Positions 9,325-27,230 of a stretch of 32,134 bases of DNA are shown here, piece after piece. The stretch is from Georgenia thermotolerans. Its GTDB lineage: Bacteria > Actinomycetota > Actinomycetes > Actinomycetales > Actinomycetaceae. Position 1 is the stretch's first letter, and the number at the start of each line of letters is the position of its first letter. The translations under genes were made by a program, and so were the position numbers. The notes under the pieces are model-generated. The model worked only from the letters and a program-made list of their open reading frames with translations, was not told the DNA's origin and ran no database searches. The stretch is taken from assembly GCF_009193185.1 (NCBI RefSeq), contig NZ_VUKF01000049.1:1-32134 (forward strand), written 5' to 3'.

Positions 9325-9363
9325 AGGACCCCCGGTCGGTGCTTCGCTGCACATGTCGCCGGA

Positions 9364-13049: not shown

Positions 13050-13055
13050 TACGGT
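13050..13055 (+). promoter_or_regulatory. Putative leaderless -10 (TACGGT) of first glycosyltransferase gene
   Basis: TACGGT ends 7 nt before the GTG at 13063. The identical hexamer stands 6 nt before the GTG of the GT gene at 18842 on the other strand. Confidence 0.5.
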
Positions 13056-13062
13056 GCCGCGC

Positions 13063-13986
13063 GTGGACCCAGCCGAGGAGCGCGTGGCGGTCGTCGTCGT
13101 CACCTTCAATAGCGAGCCGCTGCTGCCCGACCTCCTCGCCTCTCTCCCGGCGGGACTCGCCGGCCTCGACTGGCACCTGGTCGTGGCGGACAACGCGTCG
13201 TCGGACCGCAGCGTCGAACGGGTGCGGCACCTCGCCCCCGACGCCACCGTCGTCGAGCTCGGGCGCAACGCGGGCTACGCGGCGGGCATCAACGCGGCCG
13301 TCGCTGCCGCCGGCGCGCACACGGCGGTGCTCGTGCTCAACCCCGACGTCCGGCTCGACCCCGGCTGTGCCGCCGAACTGCTCCGGGCGCTGCGCACGCC
13401 CGGCACGGGGATCGCCGTGCCGCGACTGCGGGACGCGCACGGGGAACTCATCCGCTCCATGCGCCGGGAGCCCACCGTGCTGCGGGCGCTCGGGGACGCG
13501 GTGCTGGGCACGGAGCGCGCCGGACAGCAGGACAGCCTCGGGGAGATGGTCACCCGTCTGGAGAGCTACCGTGGCGAGCAGCTCGCCGACTGGGCGGAAG
13601 GCTCCACCCAGCTCATCAGCGCCGAGTGCTGGCGCCGGTGTGGGCCCTGGGACGAGTCGTTCTTCCTGTACTCCGAGGAGGTCGACTTCGGACTGCGCGC
13701 CCGTGACGCCGGCTTCGCCACCCGGTACGTCCCGGCCGCGGGCGCAGTCCATCTCGAAGGCGGGTCGGGCAGCTCCCCCCGGCTGTGGGCCCTGCTCGTG
13801 ACCAACAAGGTGCGCCTCTTCCGGCGCCGACGGGGCGTGCTCCCGGCCCTGCCCTTCTGGGTGGTGATGCTGCTCCGCGAGGCCAGCCGGGCGGCCCTGG
13901 GACGGCCGCACAGCCGGGCCGCGGCAGCGGCCTTGCTCAATCCGCGGCACCTGCGCGAGCTGCCCGGGCCCGACCGCTTGGCGTAG
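13063..13986 (+). CDS. Family 2 glycosyltransferase, rhamnosyltransferase-like
   Basis: A 307-residue cytosolic GT-A enzyme that adds a sugar from a nucleotide donor to a growing glycan. The motifs are VAVVVVTFNSEPLLPDLLAS, VVADNASSDRS, LGRNAGYAAGINAAV and VLNPDVRLDPG (donor/metal site NPD), then GSTQLISAECWRRCGPWDES and FLYSEEVDFGLRARDAG, the acceptor side of WbbL/rhamnosyltransferase-like members. The C-terminal part (LWALLVTNKVRLFRRRRG) may touch the membrane. GTG 13063 was preferred to GTG 13054 because TACGGT lies 7 nt ahead, suggesting a leaderless mRNA. It converges with the deacetylase gene, 6 nt apart. The sugar cannot be determined. Confidence 0.88.
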   Translation: MDPAEERVAVVVVTFNSEPLLPDLLASLPAGLAGLDWHLVVADNASSDRSVERVRHLAPDATVVELGRNAGYAAGINAAVAAAGAHTAVLVLNPDVRLDPGCAAELLRALRTPGTGIAVPRLRDAHGELIRSMRREPTVLRALGDAVLGTERAGQQDSLGEMVTRLESYRGEQLADWAEGSTQLISAECWRRCGPWDESFFLYSEEVDFGLRARDAGFATRYVPAAGAVHLEGGSGSSPRLWALLVTNKVRLFRRRRGVLPALPFWVVMLLREASRAALGRPHSRAAAAALLNPRHLRELPGPDRLA

Positions 13987-13992
13987 TCGGGC

Positions 13993-14658
13993 TCACCGCC
14001 AGCGCTTCACCAGGCCCTTCGCCCACGAGGCGGCCCACGCCGCGCGCGAGGCGTGAAGTACCTCGGCGCGAAGCGACGCCGCCGTGTCGACGGTGCGTAC
14101 GCTGAAGCGCGGCTGGAGCCAGGCGCCGGTGCGCCCGGACCGCCGGTCGCTGGTGTGCACCGCGGCATACCCGAGCGAGCGGAGGCGTCGCAGCACGTGG
14201 CGGTCGTACTCGCCGCGGGGGAGCGCAGCCTCCTCCACGGAGGCGCCAATGAGCTCTGCGAGCCGCGCCCGAGCGTCCACGAGCTCGACACGCGCGGTGC
14301 GCGGATCCATCCCGCGCCAGCTGCGGTGGTCCATGCCGTGCGTGCCGAGGGTCATGCCGCGACGCCGCAGTTCGAGCACGTCGTCCGGGGAGAGGCTGCC
14401 TGCGGTGCCCAGGCGTCCGGCCAGGACGAAGAACGTGGCGTGCAGGCCCCGCTCCTCCAGCGCATCCACGCCGAGGGCGAGGTCGGACGCGTTGCCGTCG
14501 TCGAAGCTCAGGCGCACACCGGGCCAGGTCATCACCTCGTCGAGGATGCGGAGGTAGGCCTCGGCGGAGATCCAGTACGCGCTTTCGCCAGGCTCGAGCG
14601 GGCGGCGGGGGGTGCCGATGCCGTGGAAGCAGATGTTCAGCACCCGTGTGCCGGTCAT
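13993..14658 (-). CDS. Polysaccharide deacetylase (NodB domain), no signal peptide
   Basis: A 221-residue carbohydrate esterase 4-like protein, expected to remove N- or O-acetyl groups from a sugar. Motif 1 SFDDG (residues 51-55) supplies the catalytic and metal Asp; motif 2 THGMDH (106-111) supplies the two metal His; LPRGEYD (146-152) is a changed motif 3. FHGIGTP near the N-terminus is common in this group. No signal peptide or membrane helix is seen, so it should act in the cytosol, on a lipid-linked or nucleotide-bound sugar. The ATG overlaps the upstream GT stop as ATGA. It is last in the leftward wzz-wzy-GT unit. The substrate is unknown. Confidence 0.85.
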   Translation of the reverse strand: MTGTRVLNICFHGIGTPRRPLEPGESAYWISAEAYLRILDEVMTWPGVRLSFDDGNASDLALGVDALEERGLHATFFVLAGRLGTAGSLSPDDVLELRRRGMTLGTHGMDHRSWRGMDPRTARVELVDARARLAELIGASVEEAALPRGEYDRHVLRRLRSLGYAAVHTSDRRSGRTGAWLQPRFSVRTVDTAASLRAEVLHASRAAWAASWAKGLVKRWR

Positions 14659-15524
14659 CGGCTCTCCGCCTCGGCCTGGCGGGTGGAGTCATCCCTCTCC
14701 CAGCTCTGCGGGCTGCCGCGGCGTGCCAGGGCCGCGGCCACCAGCGTGACCGTGACGTAGACGACCGCCGCCGGCGCCAGCCAGGGCGCGGGCACGACGA
14801 CGTCTCGCAGCCATGACCAGCGATCGGAGGACCGTACGCTCCCGGTGACCTCCCCGCGCGCGGCTGAGGCCCGAAGCGCCCCCCCGCCGCGGCGGACGCG
14901 GACCAGGCGCCGGACAAGGTCGCGGGTGCGGAGCGGTGCTGGGACCCGCATGACGACGTCGTCCACCTGCAGCTTTTCCGCCGCGGTGAACTGGGCATCG
15001 ACGAAGAGATCGTCGGCCACCACCTCGGGGAAGACGCCGAACCTCGCCCGTCCCTCGGCGGACAGCACAAACATCCCCCGCCCGAAGAGGCTGCCGCGGT
15101 AGGCGGGCAGGCGTGAGTTGATCGCGAAGTAGGCCCGGACCACCCGCGGACGACCGGCGGCGTCGACGACGCGGCGTGGGGCGACGGCCAGCGGCCGCGG
15201 GCCGCCCGAGCCGGGATCCTCCAGCGCCGCGCAGAGCCTCTGGACCATCTCGGTGGTCGCCTCGAGGTCCGCGTCGAGGTAGACGCGCGGAAAGCCGGTC
15301 GCTTCGCGGTCGCCGGCGTTGAGCGCCCGGGACTTGCCCGCCTCGGGGACCTTCAGCACGCGCACGCCGGAGCGGGCAGCGGCCACCTGCGCCGTGCGGT
15401 CGGTGCAGCCGTTGGCGACGACGATCACGTCCAGCTCGCCGGGACGGGCGCCCGCAAGCAGAGCGTCCAGGCACTTGCCGATGACCCGCTCCTCGTTGTG
15501 CGCGGCGATGACGATACTGGTCAT
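14655..15524 (-). CDS. Family 2 glycosyltransferase with C-terminal membrane helix
   Basis: A 289-residue GT-A glycosyltransferase. SIVIAAHNEERVIGKCLDAL begins at residue 3; VVANGCTDRT, VPEAGKSRALNAG and the donor-binding VYLDADLEATTEMV follow. VVADDLFVDAQF holds the likely base-side acidic pair. Near the end is a hydrophobic helix (about residues 248-268, APWLAPAAVVYVTVTLVAAAL) and then SWERDDSTR. The ATG overlaps the stop of the Wzy-like gene (ATGA, 15521-15524) and the stop overlaps the deacetylase ATG, so it is in the middle of a tightly coupled unit. The open frame upstream of 15524 is only antisense-like sequence inside the Wzy-like gene. The sugar is unknown. Confidence 0.87.
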   Translation of the reverse strand: MTSIVIAAHNEERVIGKCLDALLAGARPGELDVIVVANGCTDRTAQVAAARSGVRVLKVPEAGKSRALNAGDREATGFPRVYLDADLEATTEMVQRLCAALEDPGSGGPRPLAVAPRRVVDAAGRPRVVRAYFAINSRLPAYRGSLFGRGMFVLSAEGRARFGVFPEVVADDLFVDAQFTAAEKLQVDDVVMRVPAPLRTRDLVRRLVRVRRGGGALRASAARGEVTGSVRSSDRWSWLRDVVVPAPWLAPAAVVYVTVTLVAAALARRGSPQSWERDDSTRQAEAESR

Positions 15525-16927
15525 GGGACCCCTCCCGGAGAAGCAGCGAGCGCCCCGACGGGTGCGCTCGGAGGTGCCGGCGGAGCGGGGTCCGCGGTCC
15601 CGGTACGCCGCAGCCCGGTCCGCTCCAGCGGTGAGGGCAACGGCCTGCCGTGTAACACGCCGTCGTGCCAGAGCGCACCAGCGACGCCCACGAGGACGAA
15701 GAGCATGATGGTCGCCTGGCCAAAGCTGAACAGGTCGAAGAACGCGCCCGAGACGCCGATCGCGAGCGTGGCCCCGAGAACCGCCTGGGCGCGGGACGCC
15801 GCGACGGCGTCGCGGGCCCGGCGGGCCGCCCCCCGGGCGCTGGCCAGCCCGAGGAGGAGCCAGACGATGACGCACCCCACGAGGACGATGCCTCCTTCGA
15901 CCAGGGACATGAGGTACTGGTTGTCGAGGTAGATGTACAGCTCGGGCCGGAACGTGCCCAGGCCGTATCCGAGCACGGGCGAGGACTCTACGAGGTCGTA
16001 GACCGCGGCGTAGGCCCGGGTGCGCGAGGCGATGCTGGTGTCCTCGGAGCTGTTGCGAAATGCTCCGAGGACGGTGCCGAGCAGGCCGGGCACCGTGGCC
16101 CGGAACATCACCAGCCCTGCCAGCCCGAGCACGAGCGCGACCAGCCGCTGCTGGCCGGTGAGCACCACCGCGTACGTGGCAAGCGCGAGCAGCAGCACGA
16201 GGATGCCCGAGCGGGAGACGGACATCGGTATCGCGGCGATGCACACGAACGTCCCGATCGCGGCCAGCTGGCGACCGAGGCGGGTCGGCCCGAAGCGGGC
16301 GAAGTGCAGCCCGATCGGTGTCACGGCGCCGGCGAGGACACCGAACTCGATGGGATGGTCGCTCGCGCCGCGCACGCGCAGGAACTCGTCCCGCATCATC
16401 TGCGCGGTGCCGTGCGCGTCCAGGCCCGGGATCTGAAACAGGTCGCTCCACTCGAACGGGACGACGAACTGCGCGACGGCCACGAACGAGCTGAGCGCCG
16501 CGCCGATCAGGAGCGCGAGGAGGAGCCGGTCGCACAGGCGAGGGGTGGCCGTGGCGGCAATGCCAAGAGCGACGACGGGCAGCGGGAACATCACCAGCGC
16601 GTAGCGGATTGCCCCGGCGGCCTCGACCGGGTCGAGCGCGCGCAGCCAGGAGGCGGCCAGGGAGCAGGCCAGTCCGAGCAGCAGGAGCCAGCAGCCGTAC
16701 TCCACCGGTGAGCTCCGGCGCGGCCGCTTCTGCTGCACCCACCCCAGGGCGACCGCCGCGGCGATCCAAAACACCATCAGCCGGGCCGGCCACCCGTTGG
16801 ACTTCAGAGGACCGGCGAGGACCACACTGGCCGGGATGGTGAGGGCGACGATCGGGAGCAGCTGGAGGGCGACCCACGGACCCCGTGGTCGCGACGGGGG
16901 CAGGAGTGCCCGGACGACGGTGCTCAC
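15521..16927 (-). CDS. O-antigen ligase/polymerase-like (Wzy-type) membrane protein
   Basis: A 468-residue multi-spanning protein, about 10-12 helices by eye. Proteins of this PF04932-like type either polymerise undecaprenyl-linked repeat units (Wzy) or ligate glycans to an acceptor. Typical motifs are VRGASDHPIEFGVLAG, MSVSRSGILVLLL, a periplasmic-side stretch with SSPVLGYGLGTF, and LDNQYLMSLVEGG. The last 45 residues are a Pro-rich cytoplasmic tail. The GTG start overlaps the Wzz stop (GTGA, 16924-16927) and the stop overlaps the next GT start. Beside a Wzz-like protein, polymerase is more likely than ligase. The wzy name is not assigned since the activity cannot be told from sequence. Confidence 0.85.
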   Translation of the reverse strand: MSTVVRALLPPSRPRGPWVALQLLPIVALTIPASVVLAGPLKSNGWPARLMVFWIAAAVALGWVQQKRPRRSSPVEYGCWLLLLGLACSLAASWLRALDPVEAAGAIRYALVMFPLPVVALGIAATATPRLCDRLLLALLIGAALSSFVAVAQFVVPFEWSDLFQIPGLDAHGTAQMMRDEFLRVRGASDHPIEFGVLAGAVTPIGLHFARFGPTRLGRQLAAIGTFVCIAAIPMSVSRSGILVLLLALATYAVVLTGQQRLVALVLGLAGLVMFRATVPGLLGTVLGAFRNSSEDTSIASRTRAYAAVYDLVESSPVLGYGLGTFRPELYIYLDNQYLMSLVEGGIVLVGCVIVWLLLGLASARGAARRARDAVAASRAQAVLGATLAIGVSGAFFDLFSFGQATIMLFVLVGVAGALWHDGVLHGRPLPSPLERTGLRRTGTADPAPPAPPSAPVGALAASPGGVP

Positions 16928-17778
16928 GGCCGTCGGACGGTGGCCGCCCCTGGCCGAACGAGCCGCCGGCCCGCTCCCGCCCCGTCGGCTTCGGCGGGGG
17001 GCGCGCCCTTAACGGTGGGCGCCGGGCGGCGGTAGTCCTGCGTGGCAGGCTCTTCCGCCGTGGCAGGCTCCTTCGCGGTGGAAGGCCCGTCGTCACCGGC
17101 CGGTGCTGGTAATCCGGCTGCCGCCGCACCGTGCCGGCCCCGGCGCGCGCGCCGGGGCCGGCGCGCGAGCATCAGGTCGGCGACCGTGGCGGCCGCGGCG
17201 GCGACCCCGCACCCGACGACGGCGATAGCGCCCGCCGCGCGCAACCGGCTCGGCGTGATGTCCTCCACGGCCCCCGCGGGGACCGCCGGCGCCAGGCGGT
17301 AGTGGGTGTTCGGCGGCGCTCCGGCGCTCTCCTGCACCTCGTCGAGGACGACGGCGGCCTCTGCGGCGATCTTGTCGAGGAGGGCGTAGACCGCCTCGGG
17401 GGACGACTGGGTGGCGTCGATGGTGACGATCGGCTGGGACTCGGACTTCTGGGCCTTGACGGACTCGCTCGTCAGGCCCTCGACCCCCAGCCGGTCCCGG
17501 AACACCGAGCTGTTGATGTTGCGCCCGAGCACGGCGGCCGCGAACTGCGCCCCGCCCTGACCGGCGTACGGGTTCTCCGGCTCCGGAGCGGCGTCGGGCT
17601 GGTCGGCGGTGCCGGCGGTCTGCTGGAGACTGGGCAGGACCACCACGGAGGCCGAGGCGGTGTAGACAGGCTCGACGGACTTGTACGACTGCAGCGCAAG
17701 CCACCCCGCGACGGCGACCAGGGGGACCGTCACGTACCAGCGCCGCAGGCACGCGCCGACAATGCTGAACAGGTCCAT
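16924..17778 (-). CDS. Wzz/YveK-like chain-length determinant protein
   Basis: A 284-residue membrane protein with two helices: YVTVPLVAVAGWLALQSYK near residue 14-32 and AAGAIAVVGCGVAAAAATVA near 190-210. The roughly 150-residue extracytoplasmic part between them starts SASVVVLPSLQQ, the usual Wzz entry, and continues with VFRDRLGVEGL. The cytoplasmic tail is Pro/Ala/Glu-rich, contains the repeats AKEPATAEEPATQ, and has no BY-kinase Walker motif, so the kinase would be separate or absent. The ATG at 17778 has GAGGAG 7 nt upstream. It sets the length of polymers with the Wzy-like protein whose gene it overlaps by 4 nt. The frame extends upstream to 18300 but without family sequence. Confidence 0.82.
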   Translation of the reverse strand: MDLFSIVGACLRRWYVTVPLVAVAGWLALQSYKSVEPVYTASASVVVLPSLQQTAGTADQPDAAPEPENPYAGQGGAQFAAAVLGRNINSSVFRDRLGVEGLTSESVKAQKSESQPIVTIDATQSSPEAVYALLDKIAAEAAVVLDEVQESAGAPPNTHYRLAPAVPAGAVEDITPSRLRAAGAIAVVGCGVAAAAATVADLMLARRPRRARRGRHGAAAAGLPAPAGDDGPSTAKEPATAEEPATQDYRRPAPTVKGAPPAEADGAGAGRRLVRPGAATVRRP

Positions 17779-17837
17779 CGACAATCTCCTCGCACCCGAC
17801 GACGGGCCAGCTGACGTGCGCCTTCGCCGGCGCCATT

Positions 17838-17899
17838 CGTTCGATGAACGTACAGCCGCGTCGGCTGCCGCACGGTGGGTATCGGTCGCGCAATTGCGC
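17838..17899 (-). promoter_or_regulatory. Regulatory region before wzz-like gene, with two palindromes
   Basis: In the 197-bp gap before the Wzz-like gene are the perfect palindrome GCGCAATTGCGC (17888-17899) and the inverted repeat CGTTC-GAT-GAACG (17838-17850). The second overlaps a possible minus-strand -10, TACGTT (17852-17847), giving a leader of about 60 nt. The base composition is less GC-rich than the genes. Confidence 0.35.
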
Positions 17900-17975
17900 A
17901 GCCGGTGGGGAGATTCCGTGAAGGGCTGCGGCCGAAGCGTTCGGCGGAACGTGGTGTCGTCGCCGGTGCTGTCCG

Positions 17976-18842
17976 TCAGAGGTACCAGACGCGGTACCGC
18001 AGGCTTCCCACCACCAACCCGGCGCTCGCCGACGCGTTCTCCAGCCACCACCAGCGGGCCCGGGAGGAGAACGGCGTGGCGGCCGTAGCAAGGGCGAGCA
18101 TCACCCAACGGCGGGCGACCCCGACCGGCCGCGGGCGGGGCATGCCGGAGGCGCGGTAGTCGCGGAAGAGCTGCGCCCGGGCACGGCCGAGCAGGTACGC
18201 CTTGCGCAACACCCCGCGAACGGAGTCTCGGTAGCGGTAGTGCACCACCGCCTCGGGGGCGTAGCGCAGCCTGTGCCCGGCGAGCTGGAGGCGCCAGCAC
18301 AGCTCGGTGTCGTCAGAGGCGTAGGTGTAGCGCTCCTCGAAGCCGCCGACGTCCTCGAACGCGGAGCGCCGCACGCCGAGGTTGGCGCTGATGGCCCGCG
18401 GCAGGAACCCCGCGGAGACGGGCAGGTGGTCGGGGTGGCGGGGGAGGTGGCGCGGACGACCCGGGTTGAGGCGTTCGCTCTCGATCGCGCCACCCGCCGC
18501 ATCCGCCGCGTCCAGGGCGCCCACCATGGCGCCGACCCAGTCCGGCGCCACCTCGTCATCGGCATCACAGAAGAGCAGCAGGTCTGCCGCCGCCACCGCC
18601 GCGCCGGCGTTGCGGGCCGCACTGGTCCCGCGCCGATGGCACCGGACGATGCGCAGCGCCGGGAGGCGCGCGCCAAACGAGCGGCACACCTTCACTGTCC
18701 CGTCGGTGGAGCCGTTGTCCACGATGACGACCTCCCACGGGAAGGCCGCATCCTGGGCCGCGAGCGCGCGCAGCTGGGTGCCGATGGTCCCGGCAGCGTT
18801 GAGCGCAGGGATGATGACGCTCGCACGGACGACGTCGTTCAC
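17976..18842 (-). CDS. Family 2 glycosyltransferase
   Basis: A 288-residue GT-A enzyme. RASVIIPALNAAGTIGTQLR starts at residue 6, then VVIVDNGSTDGT, RGTSAARNAGAAVA and LLLFCDADDEVAPDW, whose DAD is the metal/donor site. ISANLGVRRSAFEDVGGFEE and YASDDTELCWRLQLAGHRL are the acceptor-side motifs of the WcaA/mycofactocin-GT-like group. A weakly hydrophobic C-terminal segment (WVMLALATAATPF) may bind the membrane. The GTG at 18842 is 6 nt after TACGGT, so the transcript is likely leaderless and this gene may head the leftward set, 197 bp before wzz. It is divergent from the next GT. The sugar is unknown. Confidence 0.87.
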   Translation of the reverse strand: MNDVVRASVIIPALNAAGTIGTQLRALAAQDAAFPWEVVIVDNGSTDGTVKVCRSFGARLPALRIVRCHRRGTSAARNAGAAVAAADLLLFCDADDEVAPDWVGAMVGALDAADAAGGAIESERLNPGRPRHLPRHPDHLPVSAGFLPRAISANLGVRRSAFEDVGGFEERYTYASDDTELCWRLQLAGHRLRYAPEAVVHYRYRDSVRGVLRKAYLLGRARAQLFRDYRASGMPRPRPVGVARRWVMLALATAATPFSSRARWWWLENASASAGLVVGSLRYRVWYL

Positions 18843-18848
18843 ACCAGC

Positions 18849-18910
18849 ACCGTAACGGCCACGCCGGTATCCGTACGCCTGTTGACGAAACTTCGTCGCG
18901 TCAGTTGGAT
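18849..18910. promoter_or_regulatory. Divergent promoter region between two glycosyltransferase genes
   Basis: Leftward: TACGGT (18854-18849) stands 6 nt before GTG 18842. Rightward: TTGACG (18882-18887), 17 nt, then TTGGAT (18905-18910), the best -35/-10 pair in the window by eye; its leader to ATG 19046 would be about 130 nt, in which I see no clear structure. Confidence 0.45.
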
Positions 18911-19045
18911 GGGCCTCCACCTGGGCGGACGCGGGACTGGTCGCCGAGGCCGACACGCCCGAGTCGCCGACGCCGAAGGAGCGCACGTCATGCTGACAGG
19001 TGGGGGCGGGCCGGCGCCGTGCACCGGACCAGGACTCGGACGACG

Positions 19046-19963
19046 ATGACCCCCGCCGTGTCGGTGGTCATCCCGAGCTACAACCGCTCCGCCACCATCG
19101 TCCCCGCCATCGCCAGTGTCCTGCGACAGACATTCACGGACCTGGAGGTTCTCGTCGTCGACGACGGGTCGACCGACGACACCGTTGCGCAGGCCGAGCG
19201 TCTCCCCGACCCCCGGCTCCGGGTGCTGCGAAGCACGGCCAACGCTGGGGTGAGCGCGGCCCGCAACCGAGGCGTCGAGCACGCCCGGGGTGCCTGGGTC
19301 GCGTTCCAGGACAGCGACGACGAGTGGCTGCCGACGAAGCTGGAGAAGCAGCTGGCGAGGCTGGGGACGGCCGGGCCGGACCACGTCGGCGCGTACTGCG
19401 GGATGCTCGTCGTGGGCGCCCTGGAGGAGCACGGGGGCCGCACCGAGGTGCGCTACGTTCCCGAGCCCGAGACGCGCCTCGTGGAGGGCGACATCCTGCC
19501 CACGCTCTTGCGGACGAGCACGGTGAGCACGCAGACGATGGTCGTCCGCCGCCGTGACCTCCTGCGGGTCGGCGGCTTCGACGAGCAGCTCCGGTCACTC
19601 GTCGACTGGGACCTCGCGCTCCGCCTCTCGCGCGTGGGCCCGTGGGCGTTCGTCGACGAGCCACTGGTCCTGCAGCGCTTCTCGGCGAACAGCCTGACCC
19701 ACGGTGTCGAACGGCGGGTCCGCTCGACGGTGCGGGTGGTGGAGAAGAACCTCGACCTTCTCGAGGAACGGCCGAGGGTGCTCGCCGAGCACTACCGCAC
19801 CATCGCGGGGGCCTACCGCCGGCTGGGACGGTTCGCAGAAGCCCGGGACTACCTGCGGCGGGCACGCGGGCTGCGACGCACCGACGGCCGTCTGTGGGCT
19901 CTCGCCGCCTGCACCGAGGCGGCCGGCCTGGTTCGGTGCGGGCCCGGCCGTGGCCGGCGGTGA
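19046..19963 (+). CDS. Family 2 glycosyltransferase with TPR-like tail
   Basis: A 305-residue protein. The GT-A domain starts VSVVIPSYNRSATIVPAIAS at residue 5, then VVDDGSTDDT, NAGVSAARNRGVEHARG and VAFQDSDDEWLP with the donor-site DSDD. TSTVSTQTMVVRRRDLLRVG and LVDWDLALRLSRVG are the ED-equivalent acceptor motifs. From about residue 245 the tail turns alpha-helical, and IAGAYRRLGRFAEARDYLRR looks like one TPR. The ATG at 19046 was chosen from the domain start; the Shine-Dalgarno is weak. The frame is open back to 18905 but upstream residues are Arg-rich and non-coding in look. Its stop is 3 nt from the stop of the convergent ABC exporter gene. The sugar is unknown. Confidence 0.85.
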   Translation: MTPAVSVVIPSYNRSATIVPAIASVLRQTFTDLEVLVVDDGSTDDTVAQAERLPDPRLRVLRSTANAGVSAARNRGVEHARGAWVAFQDSDDEWLPTKLEKQLARLGTAGPDHVGAYCGMLVVGALEEHGGRTEVRYVPEPETRLVEGDILPTLLRTSTVSTQTMVVRRRDLLRVGGFDEQLRSLVDWDLALRLSRVGPWAFVDEPLVLQRFSANSLTHGVERRVRSTVRVVEKNLDLLEERPRVLAEHYRTIAGAYRRLGRFAEARDYLRRARGLRRTDGRLWALAACTEAAGLVRCGPGRGRR

Positions 19964-19966
19964 CGC

Positions 19967-21784
19967 TCAGGCCCCCTGCTGGTTCTGGGTGATCTCGCTG
20001 AGCTGGTGGTAGAAGGCGTTGGTCTCGAGGAGGCTGGCCGGGGTGTCGAAGGCCTGCAGCCGGCCCTGGTCGACGACGAGGACCCGGTCGCAGAACGACA
20101 GCGCCGAGAGGCGGTGGCTGACGATGAAGAGGGTGATCTTGCCCTTGAGACCCTCGAGCGCCTGGTGCACCAGCGCCTCGGACCGGACATCCAGCGCGCT
20201 CGTGGCTTCGTCGAGGATGAGGATCTCCGGCGTCCCCGCCAGGGCGCGGGCCAGGCAGATGCGCTGGCGCTGCCCTCCCGAGACGGCTGCGACCCGCTGG
20301 CCGACGACCGTCTCGTAGCCGTCCGGCCAGGACATCACGTCGTCATGGATGTTGGCCGCCCGGGCGGCCGCCTCGATGTCCGCGTCGGTGAGATCTGGGC
20401 GGTAGAAGCGGATGTTGTCGGCCACCGTTCCCCAGATGAGCTGCGGGGTCTGCGGTACGTAGGCGACACGCTCCTGCCACTGCCTTCTCCGGAACGCACG
20501 CGCGTCGAGCCCATTGACGAGCAGGGTGCCGCCGGTGGCGTCCCGCAGCCGCAGCAGGATCTGCACCAGCGTGGACTTCCCGGACCCGGACGGCCCTGCG
20601 ATGCCGACCGCCTCCCCCCGGCGGACGCTGAAGGTGATGTCCGTCAGGACCTGACGGCCCGCCGGGTAGGAGAAGTCCACGGACACCGCGCCCAGCTCGC
20701 GGATGGGGGGAAGGTCGGTGTCGCCGTCCTGCTGGGGGTGGGAGACGTACCTCTCGATCGCGTCCGCCAGCCGCTGCATGAACGGGATCTTCTCGTCCAT
20801 GCTCGTCGCCACGCTCTGGACCTGCTGCCCGTAGGTGAGGGCGCGGACGAGGATGAGCACGACGGCGCCCAGCGTGGTGAACTGGCTGGCCTCCACGAGC
20901 GAGACGGCGATGAGGGCCAGGACGAGCAGCAGCAGGGCGACGCTCTGGAACAGGCCGGGAACGAGCTCGGCGAGGAAGCGCGTGCGCAGCGCCGGCAGGC
21001 GGACCTTGTCGATGAGCCCGTAGAAGGCCTCCCGGTAGGTCGGCGAGGCGCCGAAGACCTGCACCTCCTCGGCGATGAGGACCGCCTCGTCGACTCCCTG
21101 GGAGTACTCGATGTTCTCTGCGCTGAAGTCCCGCGCGTACTCGCGCAGGCGGCGGGCCAGGGGCCGGAGCGCGATGAACAGCACCACGGACGTCACCGTG
21201 AGGATGACGGCCGCGGGCAGGTTGAGCACGTAGGCGGAGATGACGAGCGTGAGAAAGGTGACCCCGGCCGACACGCCGTGCCCGAGGGTGATGACTGCCT
21301 GGCTCACCGTGGAGATGTGCATGTTCATCAGGGACTGGAAGACACCGCCGCGCTCGTTGGCCTTGACCGTCCAGGCGGCCCCGACGAACGCGTCGAAGAG
21401 CTCCCGACGGAGGTCGGCCATCGCCTGGGACCCCAGCCGCGCCGGGACATAGGCCAGCATGGCGTTGACGCCGGCACGGCCGAGCGCCAGTACCACCGCG
21501 ACGGCGAAGGCCGCCCGGAGCGGAAGGTCGAGGGCCAACGGACCGAGCTCGGCCTGCACACCCTCCGTGCCGGACGCCAGCGAGGCGGCGATGATGGCGA
21601 TGAGCGCGATGAGGGTCGACTCCACGACGCCCGCGACCAACGAGAGGGCGCCGAGCAGCAGCAGCTGCCGCCGCGAGCGCCGGAAGAAGGGCGACAGCCG
21701 CCGCCAGGCCGCCCACGTCTTACGGGCGACGTCCAAGGGGCTGGGGCGCCGGGGCGCCGCGGTCGGGGACGGTGTCTCGGCCAC
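19967..21784 (-). CDS. ABC exporter, fused membrane and ATPase domains; candidate flippase
   Basis: A 605-residue half-transporter that would work as a dimer. The N-terminal half has about six helices (LLLLGALSLVAGVVESTLIA near residue 41 is the first). The ATPase half has Walker A GPSGSGKSTLVQ (about residue 392), the Q-loop YVPQTPQLIWGTV, signature VSGGQRQRICLARAL, Walker B ILILDEATSALD and H-loop SHRLS. GGAGGG lies 7 nt before the GTG at 21784, fixing the start. In a locus with Wzy- and Wzz-like genes but no Wzx, it may flip lipid-linked glycan as PglK does in Campylobacter; this is inference. A minus-strand TACGCT (21845-21840) may be its -10. Other substrates, such as a lipid or drug, are possible. 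Confidence 0.9.
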   Translation of the reverse strand: MAETPSPTAAPRRPSPLDVARKTWAAWRRLSPFFRRSRRQLLLLGALSLVAGVVESTLIALIAIIAASLASGTEGVQAELGPLALDLPLRAAFAVAVVLALGRAGVNAMLAYVPARLGSQAMADLRRELFDAFVGAAWTVKANERGGVFQSLMNMHISTVSQAVITLGHGVSAGVTFLTLVISAYVLNLPAAVILTVTSVVLFIALRPLARRLREYARDFSAENIEYSQGVDEAVLIAEEVQVFGASPTYREAFYGLIDKVRLPALRTRFLAELVPGLFQSVALLLLVLALIAVSLVEASQFTTLGAVVLILVRALTYGQQVQSVATSMDEKIPFMQRLADAIERYVSHPQQDGDTDLPPIRELGAVSVDFSYPAGRQVLTDITFSVRRGEAVGIAGPSGSGKSTLVQILLRLRDATGGTLLVNGLDARAFRRRQWQERVAYVPQTPQLIWGTVADNIRFYRPDLTDADIEAAARAANIHDDVMSWPDGYETVVGQRVAAVSGGQRQRICLARALAGTPEILILDEATSALDVRSEALVHQALEGLKGKITLFIVSHRLSALSFCDRVLVVDQGRLQAFDTPASLLETNAFYHQLSEITQNQQGA

Positions 21785-21901
21785 AGGGCATCCCTCCAGG
21801 CCGGTGCGGTCGATGCGGAGCGGTGCGTCCGCCCGCAGCAGCGTATGGCCGCTCCCGGACGTGCGTGGCCGAAACCGCGGACAATTCTGGGCGGCCTCTT
21901 C

Positions 21902-21907
21902 TACCGT
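21902..21907 (+). promoter_or_regulatory. Putative leaderless -10 (TACCGT) of the 769-residue protein gene
   Basis: TACCGT ends 7 nt before the ATG at 21915, with CGGACA 18 nt upstream as a -35. This sits in the 130-bp divergent gap opposite the ABC exporter gene. Confidence 0.5.
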
Positions 21908-21914
21908 GCCGGGA

Positions 21915-24224
21915 ATGAGACTGGCATCGGTCCTCCCCGGCGATCTTCGCGTCCTCGAGATCGGGGCGACGGGGCCGTCTGTGGCGCGTGAGCTTGCCGA
22001 GGCCGGCCACGCCCGGTACCTGGGCCTCATCCCGCCGGACGTCCTGGACCTGGTCCGGCTGGGATCGCCCGGCCTCGAGCACCGCCTCCACCCGCTGCAC
22101 GGCACCGACCAGGTCCTGCGCTCCAGCACCGACGTGCTGCTCCTGCGCGCGCCGTACACCCGGCTCGCGTGGGCGCTGCGGGACCTCGAGGTGCGCTACC
22201 TCGCCGTCGAGGTGCAGGGGGCGGCCTCGGTCGGCACGCGCGGCGCCGGACTGGTGGGACGGCTGACGGGCAAGGCCCGCCAGGTGGGTCGCGTGACCTG
22301 CGGCGGCGCGGACTTTGACCTCATCCAGCTTGAGCACCCCGCACCCCCGCTCACCCGGCGCTACCTCTCGGAGGTCATGGGGGTCGAGGGCCTCGTCCGA
22401 CGCCTGGACGAGGTGGGGGCGCGCTACGCCGTCCTCCGCTGGTTCGAGTCGTTGCCCGCGCTGGCCCCGGGTGAGGACCTCGACGTGCTGGTGGCCGACG
22501 AGCACCTGGCGACCGTCGGGGCGGTGCTCGCCGAGGAGCCGGGGACCATCCCCGTGGACCTCTACAGCGAGACCGGCCTGGAAGGCTCGGACTACCAGGG
22601 CATGGCCTACTACCCTCCGGCGCTCGCGGCGGGGCTGCTCGCCCGGGCCGTCCGGCACGCCAGCGGATGTCTCGTGCCCGCGCCGGCGGACCACCTCCAC
22701 TCGCTCGCCTATCACGCGGTCTATCACAAGGGCGCCCGCTCCGGGCTTCCCTCGTCCGTCGTGGCCACCCTTCCCGACCCCGAGCACGACTACGCCGCCG
22801 TCCTGGTGTCCCTCGCCCGCGAACGGGGCGTGGCGCTGGAGGTGTCCCTCGAGGGGGTCGACGCGTACCTCGCGGCCGCGGGCTGGCGTCCGCCCCCGGA
22901 CACGTTGCGCCGGATGGCGGAGACCAACGAGTGGATCGCGCGGCGCCACTGCTCGGTCGAGCCAGGGCCCGCCGACCTCCCCGAGGCGGTCGCCTTCTTC
23001 GTGCGCGAACGCACCCTGTCGGTGCTCAACCTCGACGACGTCCTTGACGTGCTGCGGGCCCTGGAGTTCGAACTCGTGGCGGTGCGCGAGCTCGGGTCAG
23101 AAGCGCGGGCTCGTTGCGCCGCCGACGTTCGTGGCGGGAACTGGGGGAGAGGGCCGTTCCGGGTCAGCGGGGGCGAGCCGGTCGTCGTGGTGGCGGCACT
23201 TCACTACGGGCGTCGGCCCCCGGACGCGGAGGTGCTGGAGAGGTATCCTCGCCTGACCAACTCGGACGTGCTGCTCGCCAAGAACGAGGTGCGTGATCTC
23301 GTGCGCTCCCGGGTGGGGGAGGCTCGGGCGTTCAACCCCGTGCACTCCTCGGACGACGAGCTCGAGGCGTGGGAGTACCTCCGGCTCGCCCTTCCCGACG
23401 GGGTGGACGAGCTGCGGCAGGTGGCCGCGCGGCGGAAGGACGACTTCCGCACGGAGGCGCCGGTGCGGGCGGTCCTGCGGAGCGGGCGCCGAGCGAAGGT
23501 CGAGGTGGTCGACGGGCCCGACGGTCCGGTGGTGCGCAAGACTTTCGGCGCCCACGCGGCGCGGTACCTCGAGCGGGAGGTGCGTGCCATCCAGGACCTT
23601 GCCCCCCACGTGGCCGCCGTCCCCTCCGTCACGGCGGTGGGGCAGAACTGGTTTGCCTTGCCGTACTTCCGCGACGTGCTGCGCGTCCCGGACCGGCCCG
23701 ACGGGTCGCTGGTGCCGCTGCGTCTCGCCCGGGAGATGACCGGTGTGCTCCGCGAGGTCCACGCGCGCGGGCTGGACCTGGTCGACGCCAAGCCTCAGAA
23801 CTTCATGTTCGACCCCCGTTACGGGCTGAAGCTGGTGGACCTGGAGTTCTGCCACCGCTACCCGGGGGAGGTCCCCGACTTCCGCGAGATCTACGCCTTC
23901 GCCGGGCTGCCTGCCGACTTCGACGGCGACCGCCCCTACGGAAAGCTCGGCTACGACACCCTGTGGAGACCGTTCGTCGGGCTCTCCCGTGACGCGTTGC
24001 TGGCGGACCCCGCGTGGCTGCAGCACGCCAAGCGAGCGGCCTTCCGGCTCCGCACAGGCACGACGACCCGGGCACGCGCTGCCGCCCGCCGCGGCAGGGA
24101 CGGTGGCCGACGCCTGCGCTCGCGGATGGCCACGGCCTACTGGGACTGGGCGCGTGCCCGTGCCCTGGAGCCCGTGGTCGTGACGGCACCACGCCTCGAA
24201 CGTCCCGCCATGGCGAACCGGTGA
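21915..24224 (+). CDS. Multidomain protein: NDK-like plus kinase-like C-terminal domain
   Basis: A 769-residue protein that I do not recognise as one known family. Four parts are visible. Residues 10-140 resemble a degraded Rossmann/methyltransferase fold (LRVLEIGATGPSVARELAEAG). About 155-345 looks like a nucleotidyltransferase-type region with DLDVLV (188-193). About 362-495 resembles nucleoside diphosphate kinase: RERTLSVLN, FELVAVREL, then NPVHSSDDELEA, where H477 aligns with the phospho-His of NxxHxSD; the NDK lysine of the KPD motif is missing. About 512-690 resembles small-molecule or lipopolysaccharide kinases: VVRKTFG (K542), E555 in YLEREVRAI, LDLVDAKPQN as catalytic loop and VDLEF as the metal motif. 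No membrane helices or signal peptide. The ATG is fixed by a -10 7 nt upstream. The next gene, a GT, starts 40 nt after the stop. A role in glycan phosphorylation or nucleotide-sugar supply is only inferred. Confidence 0.7.
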   Translation: MRLASVLPGDLRVLEIGATGPSVARELAEAGHARYLGLIPPDVLDLVRLGSPGLEHRLHPLHGTDQVLRSSTDVLLLRAPYTRLAWALRDLEVRYLAVEVQGAASVGTRGAGLVGRLTGKARQVGRVTCGGADFDLIQLEHPAPPLTRRYLSEVMGVEGLVRRLDEVGARYAVLRWFESLPALAPGEDLDVLVADEHLATVGAVLAEEPGTIPVDLYSETGLEGSDYQGMAYYPPALAAGLLARAVRHASGCLVPAPADHLHSLAYHAVYHKGARSGLPSSVVATLPDPEHDYAAVLVSLARERGVALEVSLEGVDAYLAAAGWRPPPDTLRRMAETNEWIARRHCSVEPGPADLPEAVAFFVRERTLSVLNLDDVLDVLRALEFELVAVRELGSEARARCAADVRGGNWGRGPFRVSGGEPVVVVAALHYGRRPPDAEVLERYPRLTNSDVLLAKNEVRDLVRSRVGEARAFNPVHSSDDELEAWEYLRLALPDGVDELRQVAARRKDDFRTEAPVRAVLRSGRRAKVEVVDGPDGPVVRKTFGAHAARYLEREVRAIQDLAPHVAAVPSVTAVGQNWFALPYFRDVLRVPDRPDGSLVPLRLAREMTGVLREVHARGLDLVDAKPQNFMFDPRYGLKLVDLEFCHRYPGEVPDFREIYAFAGLPADFDGDRPYGKLGYDTLWRPFVGLSRDALLADPAWLQHAKRAAFRLRTGTTTRARAAARRGRDGGRRLRSRMATAYWDWARARALEPVVVTAPRLERPAMANR

Positions 24225-24264
24225 CATCCTCCCCGGCGCCCCACCGACCCGATGGAGCAGAGCG

Positions 24265-25182
24265 ATGAGCGACGTGACCGTGCCCCCGGCGCCCGAAGGG
24301 CTGCCGTACGTCTCCGTCGTCGTGCCGGTGCACAACGACACCGCCAGGTTGCGCCTCTGCCTGCAGGCCCTCGCGGCCCAGGACTACCCGGCGGACCGCT
24401 TCGAGGTCTGGGTGGTCGACAACAACTCCGACGACGACCCCCGGCCCGCCCTCCCCGAGGACGAGCGCTTCCAGCTTCTGCGCGAGCGGCGCCGCGGTTC
24501 GTACGCCGCCCGGAACCGGGCCCTGCCCCACGCCCGCGGGGAGGTCTTCGCCTTCACGGACAGCGACTGTCTGCCGCACCCGGACTGGCTGAGCTCCGGG
24601 GTACGGGCGCTGCTGCGGGAGCCTCGGCCGGACGCCGTGGGCGGGGCGATCCGGATCTTCTTCGACCACGGGACGGTGCCGACGTCCGGCCCCGAGCACT
24701 TCGAGGCGATCAACGAGTTCCGGCAGCGTAAGTACGTCGAGGAGTGGTCCTTCGCCGCCACCGCCAACCTCTTCGTCGATGCCCCCGTCCTCTCCCGGCT
24801 GGGAGGCTTCGACGCCACCCTGCAGTCGGGCGGCGACCTCGACTTCGGCACGCGGCTGGGACGGGCGGGAGGCCGGCTGATCTACGACGACGACACGGTG
24901 GTCGACCATCCCGCGCGTAGCACCTGGCGTGAGCTCGGCCGCAAGACCGTCCGGGTGGCCAACGGCATCGCCGACCGCTCGGCGCACCTCGGGCGTAGGG
25001 ACGCGCTGGCCCGGGCGGTGAACGAGGGCAGCGGCGCCGTGACGATCTGGCTCAAGGTGTGGCGACGCAACGAGCCGGCGCCCCGCCGGGCCGTCGAGAA
25101 AGTGCGGTACGCCGCGGCGTTCGCCTACGTCAGGCTGTTGCGCACGGGCGTGCATCTGGGACGATTCACGCGGGGCAGATGA
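24265..25182 (+). CDS. Family 2 glycosyltransferase
   Basis: A 305-residue GT-A enzyme. YVSVVVPVHNDTARLRLCLQ begins at residue 15, then WVVDNNSDDDP, GSYAARNRALPHARG and VFAFTDSDCLPHPDW, whose DSD is the donor/metal site. Acceptor motifs are AATANLFVDAPVLSRLGGF and SGGDLDFGTRLGRAGGRL. The ATG has GGAG 8 nt upstream and lies 40 nt after the stop of the 769-residue protein gene, so the two are likely co-transcribed. It converges on the TupA-like ATP-grasp gene with a 73-bp gap that holds a 15-nt direct repeat (25185-25199 and 25214-25228). The donor sugar is unknown. The function is sure at family level only. Confidence 0.88.
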   Translation: MSDVTVPPAPEGLPYVSVVVPVHNDTARLRLCLQALAAQDYPADRFEVWVVDNNSDDDPRPALPEDERFQLLRERRRGSYAARNRALPHARGEVFAFTDSDCLPHPDWLSSGVRALLREPRPDAVGGAIRIFFDHGTVPTSGPEHFEAINEFRQRKYVEEWSFAATANLFVDAPVLSRLGGFDATLQSGGDLDFGTRLGRAGGRLIYDDDTVVDHPARSTWRELGRKTVRVANGIADRSAHLGRRDALARAVNEGSGAVTIWLKVWRRNEPAPRRAVEKVRYAAAFAYVRLLRTGVHLGRFTRGR

Positions 25183-25184
25183 CC

Positions 25185-25228
25185 CCGGCCGCGGCGCCGG
25201 CGGAGCGGGTGAACCGGCCGCGGCGCCG
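25185..25228. repeat. 15-nt direct repeat between convergent genes
   Basis: CCGGCCGCGGCGCCG occurs at 25185-25199 and again at 25214-25228. Each copy is partly self-complementary, so it may help terminate either gene. Nothing else is visible in the gap. Confidence 0.4.
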
Positions 25229-25255
25229 ACGAGGCGGTGCCCGCTGGTCCGCCCG

Positions 25256-26245
25256 TCACTCGCCGCGGACCAGCGCCTCGTCGAGCGGCCGGTCCGCCGG
25301 TGTGAGGGTGCCGGCCCGGGCCGCGCGGACCTTGAGGCGGGCCTCGGCGTCCTCCCAGTAGCCGCCGAGCAGCCGGTCCAGCGCCGGGGCCAGGAGGACC
25401 TCGCCGCCCGGCTCGGGGGTGATCTCCCCGAGGACCGGGCCGTCGGCGCTGTCGAGCAGGTCGACGCGAAGGAACGAGCGCGGGATGGCCGCGCTGATCG
25501 TCCGCGCGAGCTCGAGCAGCTCGTCGGCGTGCAGTGGCGGGGGGAGGGCGGGGTCGCAGTCGTCGTTGAGGACGTTCCCGAGGTCGTTCCAGTCCGGGTC
25601 GAAGTAGCGCCAGCCCGCGGTCGGTCGCCCGTCGGCGTCGAGGAGGTGGGACTTGGACTCGATGAGGCCCACCCGGCCGAAGAATGTCCAGACCTTGTAG
25701 TCGGGGGGCTGCTCGCCGGGGAACCGCGGGTCCTCCACGAGCTCCTCGAGCAGGAAGGACGCCGAGGCCTCCTTGGCCTCGACGAGGCCGGCGACCTCGC
25801 GCCGGATCTCCTCGGCTGCCAGGGTCCGGCGCGTGAGAAGGTCGCGCCAGCGCTCGCCCTCCCGGTGGAGGAGGTAGACCCCTGTGCTCACCGTGCCGCG
25901 CGTCGGCTTGAGGACGAAGCGATCTGGCAGGTCCGCCCAGTCGAGGGAGCGGACGTCATCGTGCACTGCGAGCAGGTGGGGAGTGCGCACCCCGAGCCGC
26001 CGGGCCCAGGCGTGCATGTCGTCCTTGGCGTCCACGTCGAAGGCCGGGTCCTTGCAGCCGAGCTCGCGCATGATGCGCCGCACTCGCACGGCCTCGAGGT
26101 TCTTGTAGACGAAGGACGGCTCCTGGAGACGCGCGGTGGTCGTACGGCGGTACGTCCGCTCGACCCGCGCCCGGACGCGCTCGGGCAGGCTCGCAGCGGG
26201 AAAGACTCTCGCTCCGGCTGAGGCCGGCACCGCCGGATCCGTCAT
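25256..26245 (-). CDS. TupA-like ATP-grasp ligase
   Basis: A 329-residue ATP-grasp protein of the TupA-like group, named for a protein of teichuronopeptide synthesis; such enzymes ligate an amino or carboxyl group to a surface polymer using ATP. Visible are KDDMHAWARRLGVRTP, the ATP-binding lysine in FVLKPTRGTVSTGV, LEELVEDPRFPGEQPPDYKV and FFGRVGLIE. The C-terminal Mg-site segment is FLRVDLLDSADGPVLGEIT followed by PEPGG. The length suits the family. The ATG at 26245 has AAGGAG 5 nt upstream. TATCGT (26287-26282) is a likely -10 on the minus strand. It lies at the right edge of the glycan locus, 62 bp after the hydrolase gene on the same strand. The substrate cannot be named. Confidence 0.82.
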   Translation of the reverse strand: MTDPAVPASAGARVFPAASLPERVRARVERTYRRTTTARLQEPSFVYKNLEAVRVRRIMRELGCKDPAFDVDAKDDMHAWARRLGVRTPHLLAVHDDVRSLDWADLPDRFVLKPTRGTVSTGVYLLHREGERWRDLLTRRTLAAEEIRREVAGLVEAKEASASFLLEELVEDPRFPGEQPPDYKVWTFFGRVGLIESKSHLLDADGRPTAGWRYFDPDWNDLGNVLNDDCDPALPPPLHADELLELARTISAAIPRSFLRVDLLDSADGPVLGEITPEPGGEVLLAPALDRLLGGYWEDAEARLKVRAARAGTLTPADRPLDEALVRGE

Positions 26246-26281
26246 CGCCACTCCTTCGTCCGCATCTGCCGCGTAGTGGGG

Positions 26282-26287
26282 ACGATA
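26282..26287 (-). promoter_or_regulatory. Possible -10 (TATCGT) of the ATP-grasp gene
   Basis: On the minus strand TATCGT would start a leader of about 30 nt bearing AAGGAG before ATG 26245. No clear -35 is seen. Confidence 0.4.
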
Positions 26288-26307
26288 GGGGGTGCCTCGG
26301 GCTGCCG

Positions 26308-27036
26308 TTACGGGATCGGGCGCCCGACATGCTCTTGGGCGGGGAGGTGCGCATGCAGGAACCTCGTGGTGGCCGACCACGCGTCGTCGGCCGCCTCGGG
26401 ATGGTGGAACATCGGGAGCGGGTTGTCGAAGGCGTGCCCGGCCCCGGGGTAGAGGTGGAACTCCACGTCCGGGCCCGCCACGGCGTCGCGGATGGCCTCC
26501 ACCTGCGGCATGGGGATGTAGGCGTCGTCGGTGCCGAAGTGGTGCAGGCTCGGTGCGCTCACCCGCGGGGCGAGCTCGAGCAGACGCGGCAGCGCCGAAC
26601 CGTAGTAGGAGACGAGGACGTCGGGGTCGGCGGCGGCCGCCACGTGGAAGGCCAGTCCGCCGCCGTAGCAGAAGCCGAGCACGCCAACCCCGCCGACGAC
26701 CTCCGGGCGCTCCCGCAGGGCACGCAGGGCAGCCACGCCGTCGGCCACTGCGTCGTCCCACTCCACATGCTGCATGAGGGCAAGGCCCTGCTCGAGGTAG
26801 TCGGGCCGGCTCTCGTCCAGCTCGGGAGAGCCGATGCGCCAGTAGATCTCCGGCGCGAGCACGACGTAGCCGAGCTCGGCCAGGTCGGCGCACCGGTCCT
26901 GGATGTACCGGCTCACTCCGAAGATCTCCTGCAGGACGACGATGCCGGGCCCGGTGCCCGACGGCGGCAGCCAGAGGTGCGCGGGCATCTCGCCCTTGGC
27001 GGTGGGAACGGTCACGCTGACGGATGCCTCGGCCAT
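26308..27036 (-). CDS. Dienelactone hydrolase family protein
   Basis: A 242-residue alpha/beta hydrolase. In the family prototype a Cys-Asp-His triad opens dienelactones in aromatic degradation, but most members have unknown substrates. The triad here: GFCYGGGL carries the nucleophile Cys, GTDDAYIP the Asp and YPGAGHAFDN the His; IVVLQEIFGVS holds the conserved Glu beside the Cys. No signal peptide. ATG 27036 was chosen over ATG 27057 because AGAGGAAA lies 9 nt upstream of it. No aromatic pathway genes are near, so a general esterase role is more likely. It probably belongs to the old flank rather than to the glycan locus. Confidence 0.88.
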   Translation of the reverse strand: MAEASVSVTVPTAKGEMPAHLWLPPSGTGPGIVVLQEIFGVSRYIQDRCADLAELGYVVLAPEIYWRIGSPELDESRPDYLEQGLALMQHVEWDDAVADGVAALRALRERPEVVGGVGVLGFCYGGGLAFHVAAAADPDVLVSYYGSALPRLLELAPRVSAPSLHHFGTDDAYIPMPQVEAIRDAVAGPDVEFHLYPGAGHAFDNPLPMFHHPEAADDAWSATTRFLHAHLPAQEHVGRPIP

Positions 27037-27230
27037 CGCGGATGTTTCCTCTCTCATGTGGGGCCGCAGCGCTGCGCTGCGCCGCGCCGGTACCAGTGTG
27101 CCCGCCGATCAGGTTGTCGTCGCGTACCCGGGGCTGTTGCCCCGAACGTGGCCAGGCAGTTTCGAGCCACCGGCTGGGCGTCGCGGGCAGGAGGGTCACG
27201 GAGGTCACGGGCCGCGACGGACACCGCGGG

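Follow-up and report, generated by a model that had tools for sequence, protein, structure and literature searches.

The analysed stretch (the window; 32,134 nt of Georgenia thermotolerans contig NZ_VUKF01000049.1) contains a glycan island at 13054-27057, located between prs and an L25 gene. The island, fusion gene included, has the following features:

13054-13986, forward strand: GT2 glycosyltransferase (Pfam)
13993-14658, reverse strand: polysaccharide deacetylase (Pfam)
15521-16927, reverse strand: Wzy_C O-antigen ligase family protein (Pfam)
16924-18300, reverse strand: ORF with a weak Wzz (chain-length determinant) match (E 0.021, 15.6 bits, cut-off 25.5)
17976-18986, reverse strand: GT2 glycosyltransferase (Pfam)
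18905-19963, forward strand: GT2 glycosyltransferase (Pfam)
19967-22159, reverse strand: divergent ABC exporter (ABC_membrane and ABC_tran; Pfam); the listed ORF overlaps the fusion gene and its start is not settled
21902-21907, forward strand: TACCGT, a -10-like box, 7 nt before the fusion ATG
21915-24224, forward strand: fusion gene, 769 aa; open frame, present in 14 genomes
21915-22349, forward strand: residues 1-145, degenerate SAM-methyltransferase-like Rossmann domain (by eye)
22350-22949, forward strand: residues 146-345, nucleotidyltransferase-like domain near NTP_transf_5 (profile, residues)
22977-23429, forward strand: residues 355-505, NDK-like domain (profile, fold model)
23343-23345, forward strand: codon of H477, the NDK phospho-histidine equivalent (14/14 genomes; model strand 476-478)
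23430-24089, forward strand: residues 506-725, protein-kinase-like domain (K542, E555, D624, N629 and D642 invariant)
24265-25182, forward strand: GT2 glycosyltransferase, downstream of the fusion (Pfam)
25256-27208, reverse strand: ORF with a TupA-like ATP-grasp domain (domain about 25358-25990; Pfam)

The original prediction placed the fusion beside glycosyltransferases, an ABC exporter and a TupA-like ligase, and Pfam searches confirmed these neighbours. The predicted 769-residue gene at 21915-24224 is also real, its forward-strand frame being open throughout, and the motifs quoted for it, DLDVLV (residue 188), NPVHSSDD (474, including H477), K542, LVDAKPQN (622) and VDLEF (641), are all where they had been placed. 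The longest in-frame version of the ORF begins upstream at 21459. As the alignments of the four other Georgenia orthologues with the fusion protein begin at M1, and as TACAGT lies 6-8 nt 5' of the fusion start in all four of these loci (L008, L009, L010 and L011), giving TAC[A/C]GT at this distance in 5/5 Georgenia loci with the window included, the sequences indicate that the gene probably starts at 21915 and is transcribed as a leaderless mRNA.

The protein very probably comprises four domains. The predicted nucleotidyltransferase-like, NDK-like and kinase-like domains were supported by profile, fold or conservation evidence of varying strength, and the Rossmann part is read by eye only. None of the domains reached a Pfam or NCBIfam cut-off in searches with the window protein; Pfam hits to DUF7696, DUF433 and DUF2007, all of them weak and below cut-off, were set aside. 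The fold model was made for the NDK-like domain alone; modelling of the whole protein from two sequences gave a pLDDT of 44.

The N-terminal Rossmann part (residues 1-145) retains the E/DxG motif and has lost GxGxG, the place of the second glycine (residue 19) being taken by T, D, D, T and S in the five Georgenia rows and by R and Q in G314 and G191. The region has no Pfam match and is missing from the G050 orthologue, and the SAM-binding E/DxGxGxG loop of WbdD-type terminators was not encountered in these seven sequences.

Against NTP_transf_5 (PF14907), the nucleotidyltransferase-like domain of the window scored 12.3 bits and the best orthologue 18.4, below the cut-off of 31.2. A comparison of the domain profile with eight NTP_transf_5 members covered 155 columns (E 0.0056), with 0/200 column shuffles scoring as high; the eight were chosen, from 16 loci tried of 30 fetched, by the acidic-motif pattern they carry, so that the motif contributes to this match by selection. 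D188, D190 and D215 are invariant in all 13 genomes holding the domain. Thus, the domain shares with NTP_transf_5 profile similarity over about 155 columns, an acidic DLD with a third Asp, and a kinase partner, but differs in having LRWF for the LKG motif, in its score below cut-off and in its fusion to NDK-like and kinase domains. PsmN of pseudomycoidin biosynthesis is presumably an NTP_transf_5 member. A HMMER search with the nucleotidyltransferase-like profile against the PDB gave nothing credible.

The third domain is NDK-like rather than a member of the NDK family, because it did not score in any Pfam NDK search: PF00334 was matched neither by any of six fusion members (up to E 1) nor by the NDK-like domain of the window alone (up to E 5). 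A nine-orthologue profile compared with 18 real NDKs aligned over 132 columns with the histidines in register (E 0.0003; the flag '-glob 0' was set, but its 0 was ignored by the program), and the other three fusion domains gave E 0.76-0.9 against the same NDK profile. A plain local comparison gave E 0.0033 over 106 columns, with 2/200 shuffles scoring as high, a weak control. With 12 orthologues, E values were 0.0021 and 0.0013 and 0/300 shuffles scored as high in both directions, the closest shuffle reaching 25.9 vs 26.3 for the real comparison. Aligned columns across the NDK profile runs numbered 104-132, at E 0.0003-0.0033. One decoy, the kinase domain vs NDK, gave E 0.012 over 30 columns. 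Because the best shuffle came close to the real score and because of this decoy, the assignment from sequence alone is only suggestive. A HMMER search with the NDK-like profile against the PDB likewise gave nothing credible.

The modelled fold is stronger evidence for NDK likeness. The model, built from two sequences, has a pLDDT of 80 and a pTM of 0.81 (of the five models, three were near pLDDT 80 and two at 46 and 42), with residues 406-418 poorly modelled. Its strands and helices follow what we take to be the NDK order, and H477 is located on the last strand. The original prediction of a structural match to NDK was borne out by Foldseek, which returned 757 PDB chains up to E 10 and 41 up to 0.001; the best 50 of the 757 comprise 44 chains named NDK and six chains of axoneme or radial-spoke assemblies, which presumably hold NDK domains as structural parts. 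Among the PDB matches listed, the best E value was 4.8e-5, with probabilities of 0.98-1.00, TM scores of 0.38-0.57 and high rmsd values of 5.2-7.6 Å. In BFVD, the first-ranked match to the model is a phage protein named NDK-like domain-containing. The model also matches a Yasminevirus protein named glycosyltransferase (A0A5K0UAL1, 726 residues; E 3.6e-3, probability 0.99), which suggests that NDK-like domains may recur in sugar-transfer proteins.

The predicted loss of the KPD lysine proved correct, the residue at this position being an invariant arginine (R364, 14/14). H477 and K542, the two residues singled out in the original prediction, are conserved in all 14 genomes holding the region, as are R460, N474 and D480, so that N474 and H477 preserve the N-x-x-H motif of NDK. 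The domain thus shares with NDK (PF00334) the fold, the order of secondary structure, the NxxH(G/S)(S/A)D motif and an Arg before this motif, but lacks a Pfam match, has RE in place of KPD and forms part of a large chain. The residue 11 positions after H477, which we take to correspond to Glu129 of NDK, is Tyr in 14/14 genomes. Judged by these replacements of the KPD lysine and of Glu129, classical NDK activity may be lost. The genome of the window also contains an ordinary NDK gene (G000:C22), and the fused domain is therefore not the cell's NDK.

The kinase-like domain contains the lysine, glutamate, catalytic Asp, Asn and Mg-binding Asp of kinases (K542, E555, D624, N629 and D642), all invariant in 14/14 genomes; in two of the 14, K626 in the kinase loop is replaced by Thr or Ser. 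A nine-orthologue profile matches solved protein kinases (E 1.8e-7) and gave E 2.7e-6 against 8car_A, a chain listed as a Ser/Thr kinase that we take to be a class III lanthionine synthetase. The Pfam Pkinase match is below cut-off. DFG of kinases is replaced by DLE or DFE, so that the position reads D(L/F)EF, presumably as in small-molecule kinases, and this feature favours a sugar over a protein as the substrate. Up to E 0.5, NCBIfam gave only two matches, LanL (E 8.3e-7) and LanKC (E 5.7e-4), each over 47 residues, and these are the basis for considering a peptide- or protein-modifying kinase similar to class III/IV lanthionine synthetases. However, their scores of 27.7 and 18.4 bits are below the cut-offs of 650 and 575, the match is limited to the catalytic loop region and the neighbours are glycan genes. 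On these grounds we rejected the lanthionine synthetase reading as highly improbable.

The original prediction called for a survey of homologues with the same fusion and the same neighbours, which revealed a small conserved family in 14 genomes with recurring glycan and exporter genes nearby. These 14 include G201, where the gene is cut by a contig end, G761, where it lies on two contigs, and G050, which is without the methyltransferase-like part. The fusion was found in five of nine genomes of the window's genus, its own included, and not found in the other four, and in six of 59 relatives, again including the window's genome. In larger genome samples, which overlap so that match counts are not independent rates, the fusion profile matched 6/297 genomes of the order, one of them with a split form, and 1/246 of the phylum, the window's own. 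With the nucleotidyltransferase-like profile alone, matches were obtained in 1/246 genomes of the phylum and in 3/296 of the class, two of the latter outside the order, and the NDK-like profile matched 6/248 of the order, two weakly. Weak partial matches to the NDK-like profile were those of G222 and G266 (E 7.5e-5 and 2.8e-4). No relatives were confirmed in the viral contigs, phages or plasmids searched.

The split form, present in G301 and 11 other genomes, is roughly 450 residues long and has a different domain order, starting with the NDK-like domain, which is followed by the nucleotidyltransferase-like one. The split-form loci are L022:8614-10863, L079 and L082-L091. Searches with the split protein gave matches in 3/297 genomes of the order and in 15 of 150 genomes of the family of G301, the latter comprising 12 long matches and three full fusions. 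Compared with the fusion domains, the two parts gave E 5e-7 (NDK-like) and 2.2e-11 (nucleotidyltransferase-like). Direct comparisons gave no signal, neither between real NDKs and the NDK-like domain of the split family (E 0.3) nor between NTP_transf_5 and its second domain (E 0.19), and the links of the split family to NDK and NTP_transf_5 therefore run through the fusion's domains. In all 11 loci with flanking sequence, a kinase-like gene adjoins the gene for the split protein; the gene in G301 contains HGDLQPHN and DFE, and the split-form kinase-like gene shows weak similarity to the fused kinase (E 0.015). The three parts hence travel together whether or not they are fused, an argument for a joint function.

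The histidine is present in 12/12 split proteins and the Asn three residues before it in 0/12, and both observations bear on the alternative that the NDK-like and methyltransferase-like domains have been retired for binding or assembly, leaving only the kinase, perhaps with the nucleotidyltransferase, catalytic. The missing Asn would fit such a retirement, as would the loss of the methyltransferase glycine loop, the Arg and Tyr found in 14/14 genomes at the NDK lysine and presumed Glu129 positions, and the axoneme and radial-spoke chains among the best 50 fold matches, where we assume NDK to be structural. However, invariance of H477, N474, R460, D480 and R364 in all fusion genomes and of the histidine in all split proteins is more than expected of a scaffold, and we consider such a retirement somewhat unlikely.

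For the preferred reading, in which the fused domains act on a glycan before its export, the gene neighbourhood is informative. An ABC exporter, Wzm/Wzt or flippase is encoded in 12 of the 14 fusion loci, with glycosyltransferases also among the neighbours. The divergent ABC exporter adjoins the fusion in seven of the 14 (window, L008, L009, L010, L011, L020 and L105; those of L008, L010 and L011 were recognised solely from their similarity to the gene in the window). In three, Wzm/Wzt genes are located 4-8 kb from the fusion and include a Wzt_C match (L021, L096 and L098; Wzt_C is over the Pfam cut-off in L021 only), and a polysaccharide flippase-type gene lies directly downstream in two (L012 and L023). 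In L104, an ABC ATPase and a GT2 gene are about 5 kb away, and the nearer genes encode a carbohydrate-binding protein, a tRNA synthetase and an EF-G-type protein. L097, which is cut at a contig end, contains no exporter among the genes examined. Within Georgenia, the prs and L25 flanks are found at both ends in the window and L009, and at one end in L008, L010 and L011.

A homologue of the GT2 gene at 24265-25182 is directly downstream of the fusion in seven of the 13 loci with flanking sequence, the window counted, and is the second gene in one more. Adjoining GT2 genes would also suit a single chain that makes sugar donors, in which a free sugar or polyol would be phosphorylated by the kinase and converted to its NDP-activated form by the nucleotidyltransferase, and the NDK-like domain would regenerate NTP from the NDP that the glycosyltransferases release, in line with the recycling suggested in the original prediction. 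These three activities would make a logical cycle, for which fusions of fucokinase and GDP-fucose pyrophosphorylase provide a parallel. However, the nucleotidyltransferase-like domain appears to resemble NTP_transf_5 and not the sugar-nucleotide pyrophosphorylase fold, and the genome has its own NDK; donor synthesis by one chain seems unlikely.

Given the neighbourhood, phosphorylation of glycan intermediates or NTP recycling, as originally predicted, is plausible. By analogy with WbdD, we tentatively propose that the fusion could be an enzyme of several domains that adds phosphate to a glycan made at the membrane and modifies it further before it is exported, in a capping role that we regard as possible but short of probable. 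WbdD phosphorylates and then methylates the chain end, which stops growth and licenses export via Wzt (PMC3482155), and in Klebsiella O7 a methyltransferase-kinase of different sequence serves the same end (PMC11231755). Like WbdD of E. coli O9a and ORF6 of Klebsiella O7, the fusion combines an N-terminal methyltransferase-type fold and a kinase in one chain and belongs to polysaccharide clusters with ABC export, the Wzt_C match being near the fusion in 3/14 loci. It differs in the lost methyltransferase loop and in the additional nucleotidyltransferase-like and NDK-like domains. For the combination of kinase and nucleotidyltransferase, the lasso peptide pseudomycoidin offers a precedent, in which the kinase PsmK phosphorylates and PsmN, annotated as a nucleotidyltransferase, leads to hexoses on the phosphate; the review leaves the chemistry of PsmN unsettled (PMC9266682).

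In the proposed capping scheme, the kinase domain would phosphorylate a sugar of a lipid-linked glycan or its building block, and the nucleotidyltransferase-like domain would act on that phosphate by adding a nucleotidyl or sugar group, comparable to PsmN after PsmK. The NDK-like domain would move phosphate via H477, in the simplest case converting the NDP that the adjacent glycosyltransferases leave behind back to NTP, and the methyltransferase-like domain would be a non-catalytic relic or a binding domain. The capped or decorated chain could then be passed to the ABC exporter, Wzm/Wzt or flippase encoded nearby. The Wzy- and weak Wzz-like genes of the window's cluster count against this scheme, as they suggest that the glycan follows a polymerase route and not ABC-dependent capping of the WbdD type. 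In a further variant, which we regard as quite improbable, the NDK-like domain would be a functional phospho-histidine phosphotransferase that acts, instead of on NDP, on the glycan phosphate placed by the kinase, and the resulting glycan diphosphate would then be capped by the nucleotidyltransferase-like domain. If true, NDK chemistry would have been adopted for use at the end of a polymer, and none of the literature searched describes glycan termination of this kind.

No description of the fusion family, a fused, putatively glycan-phosphorylating enzyme with an NDK-like part, was found in the open-licence papers searched. In this unannotated enzyme family, transfer of phosphoryl and nucleotidyl groups seems to be combined in a single chain, next to the step at which Gram-positive surface glycans are exported. 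The concept of chain control by a kinase, known from WbdD, would be extended to actinobacteria through a different domain set, and the NDK fold would gain a function beyond nucleotide housekeeping.

Two further genes were noted in these regions. In G572, the second ORF downstream of the fusion (L097:5715-7700) encodes 662 residues with an APH-type kinase domain (PF01636, E 4.3e-7). In the window, the gene at 8017-9354 encodes 446 residues that give a partial match of the asparagine synthase/QueC type; a TetR regulator and an ABC-2 transporter are encoded close by.
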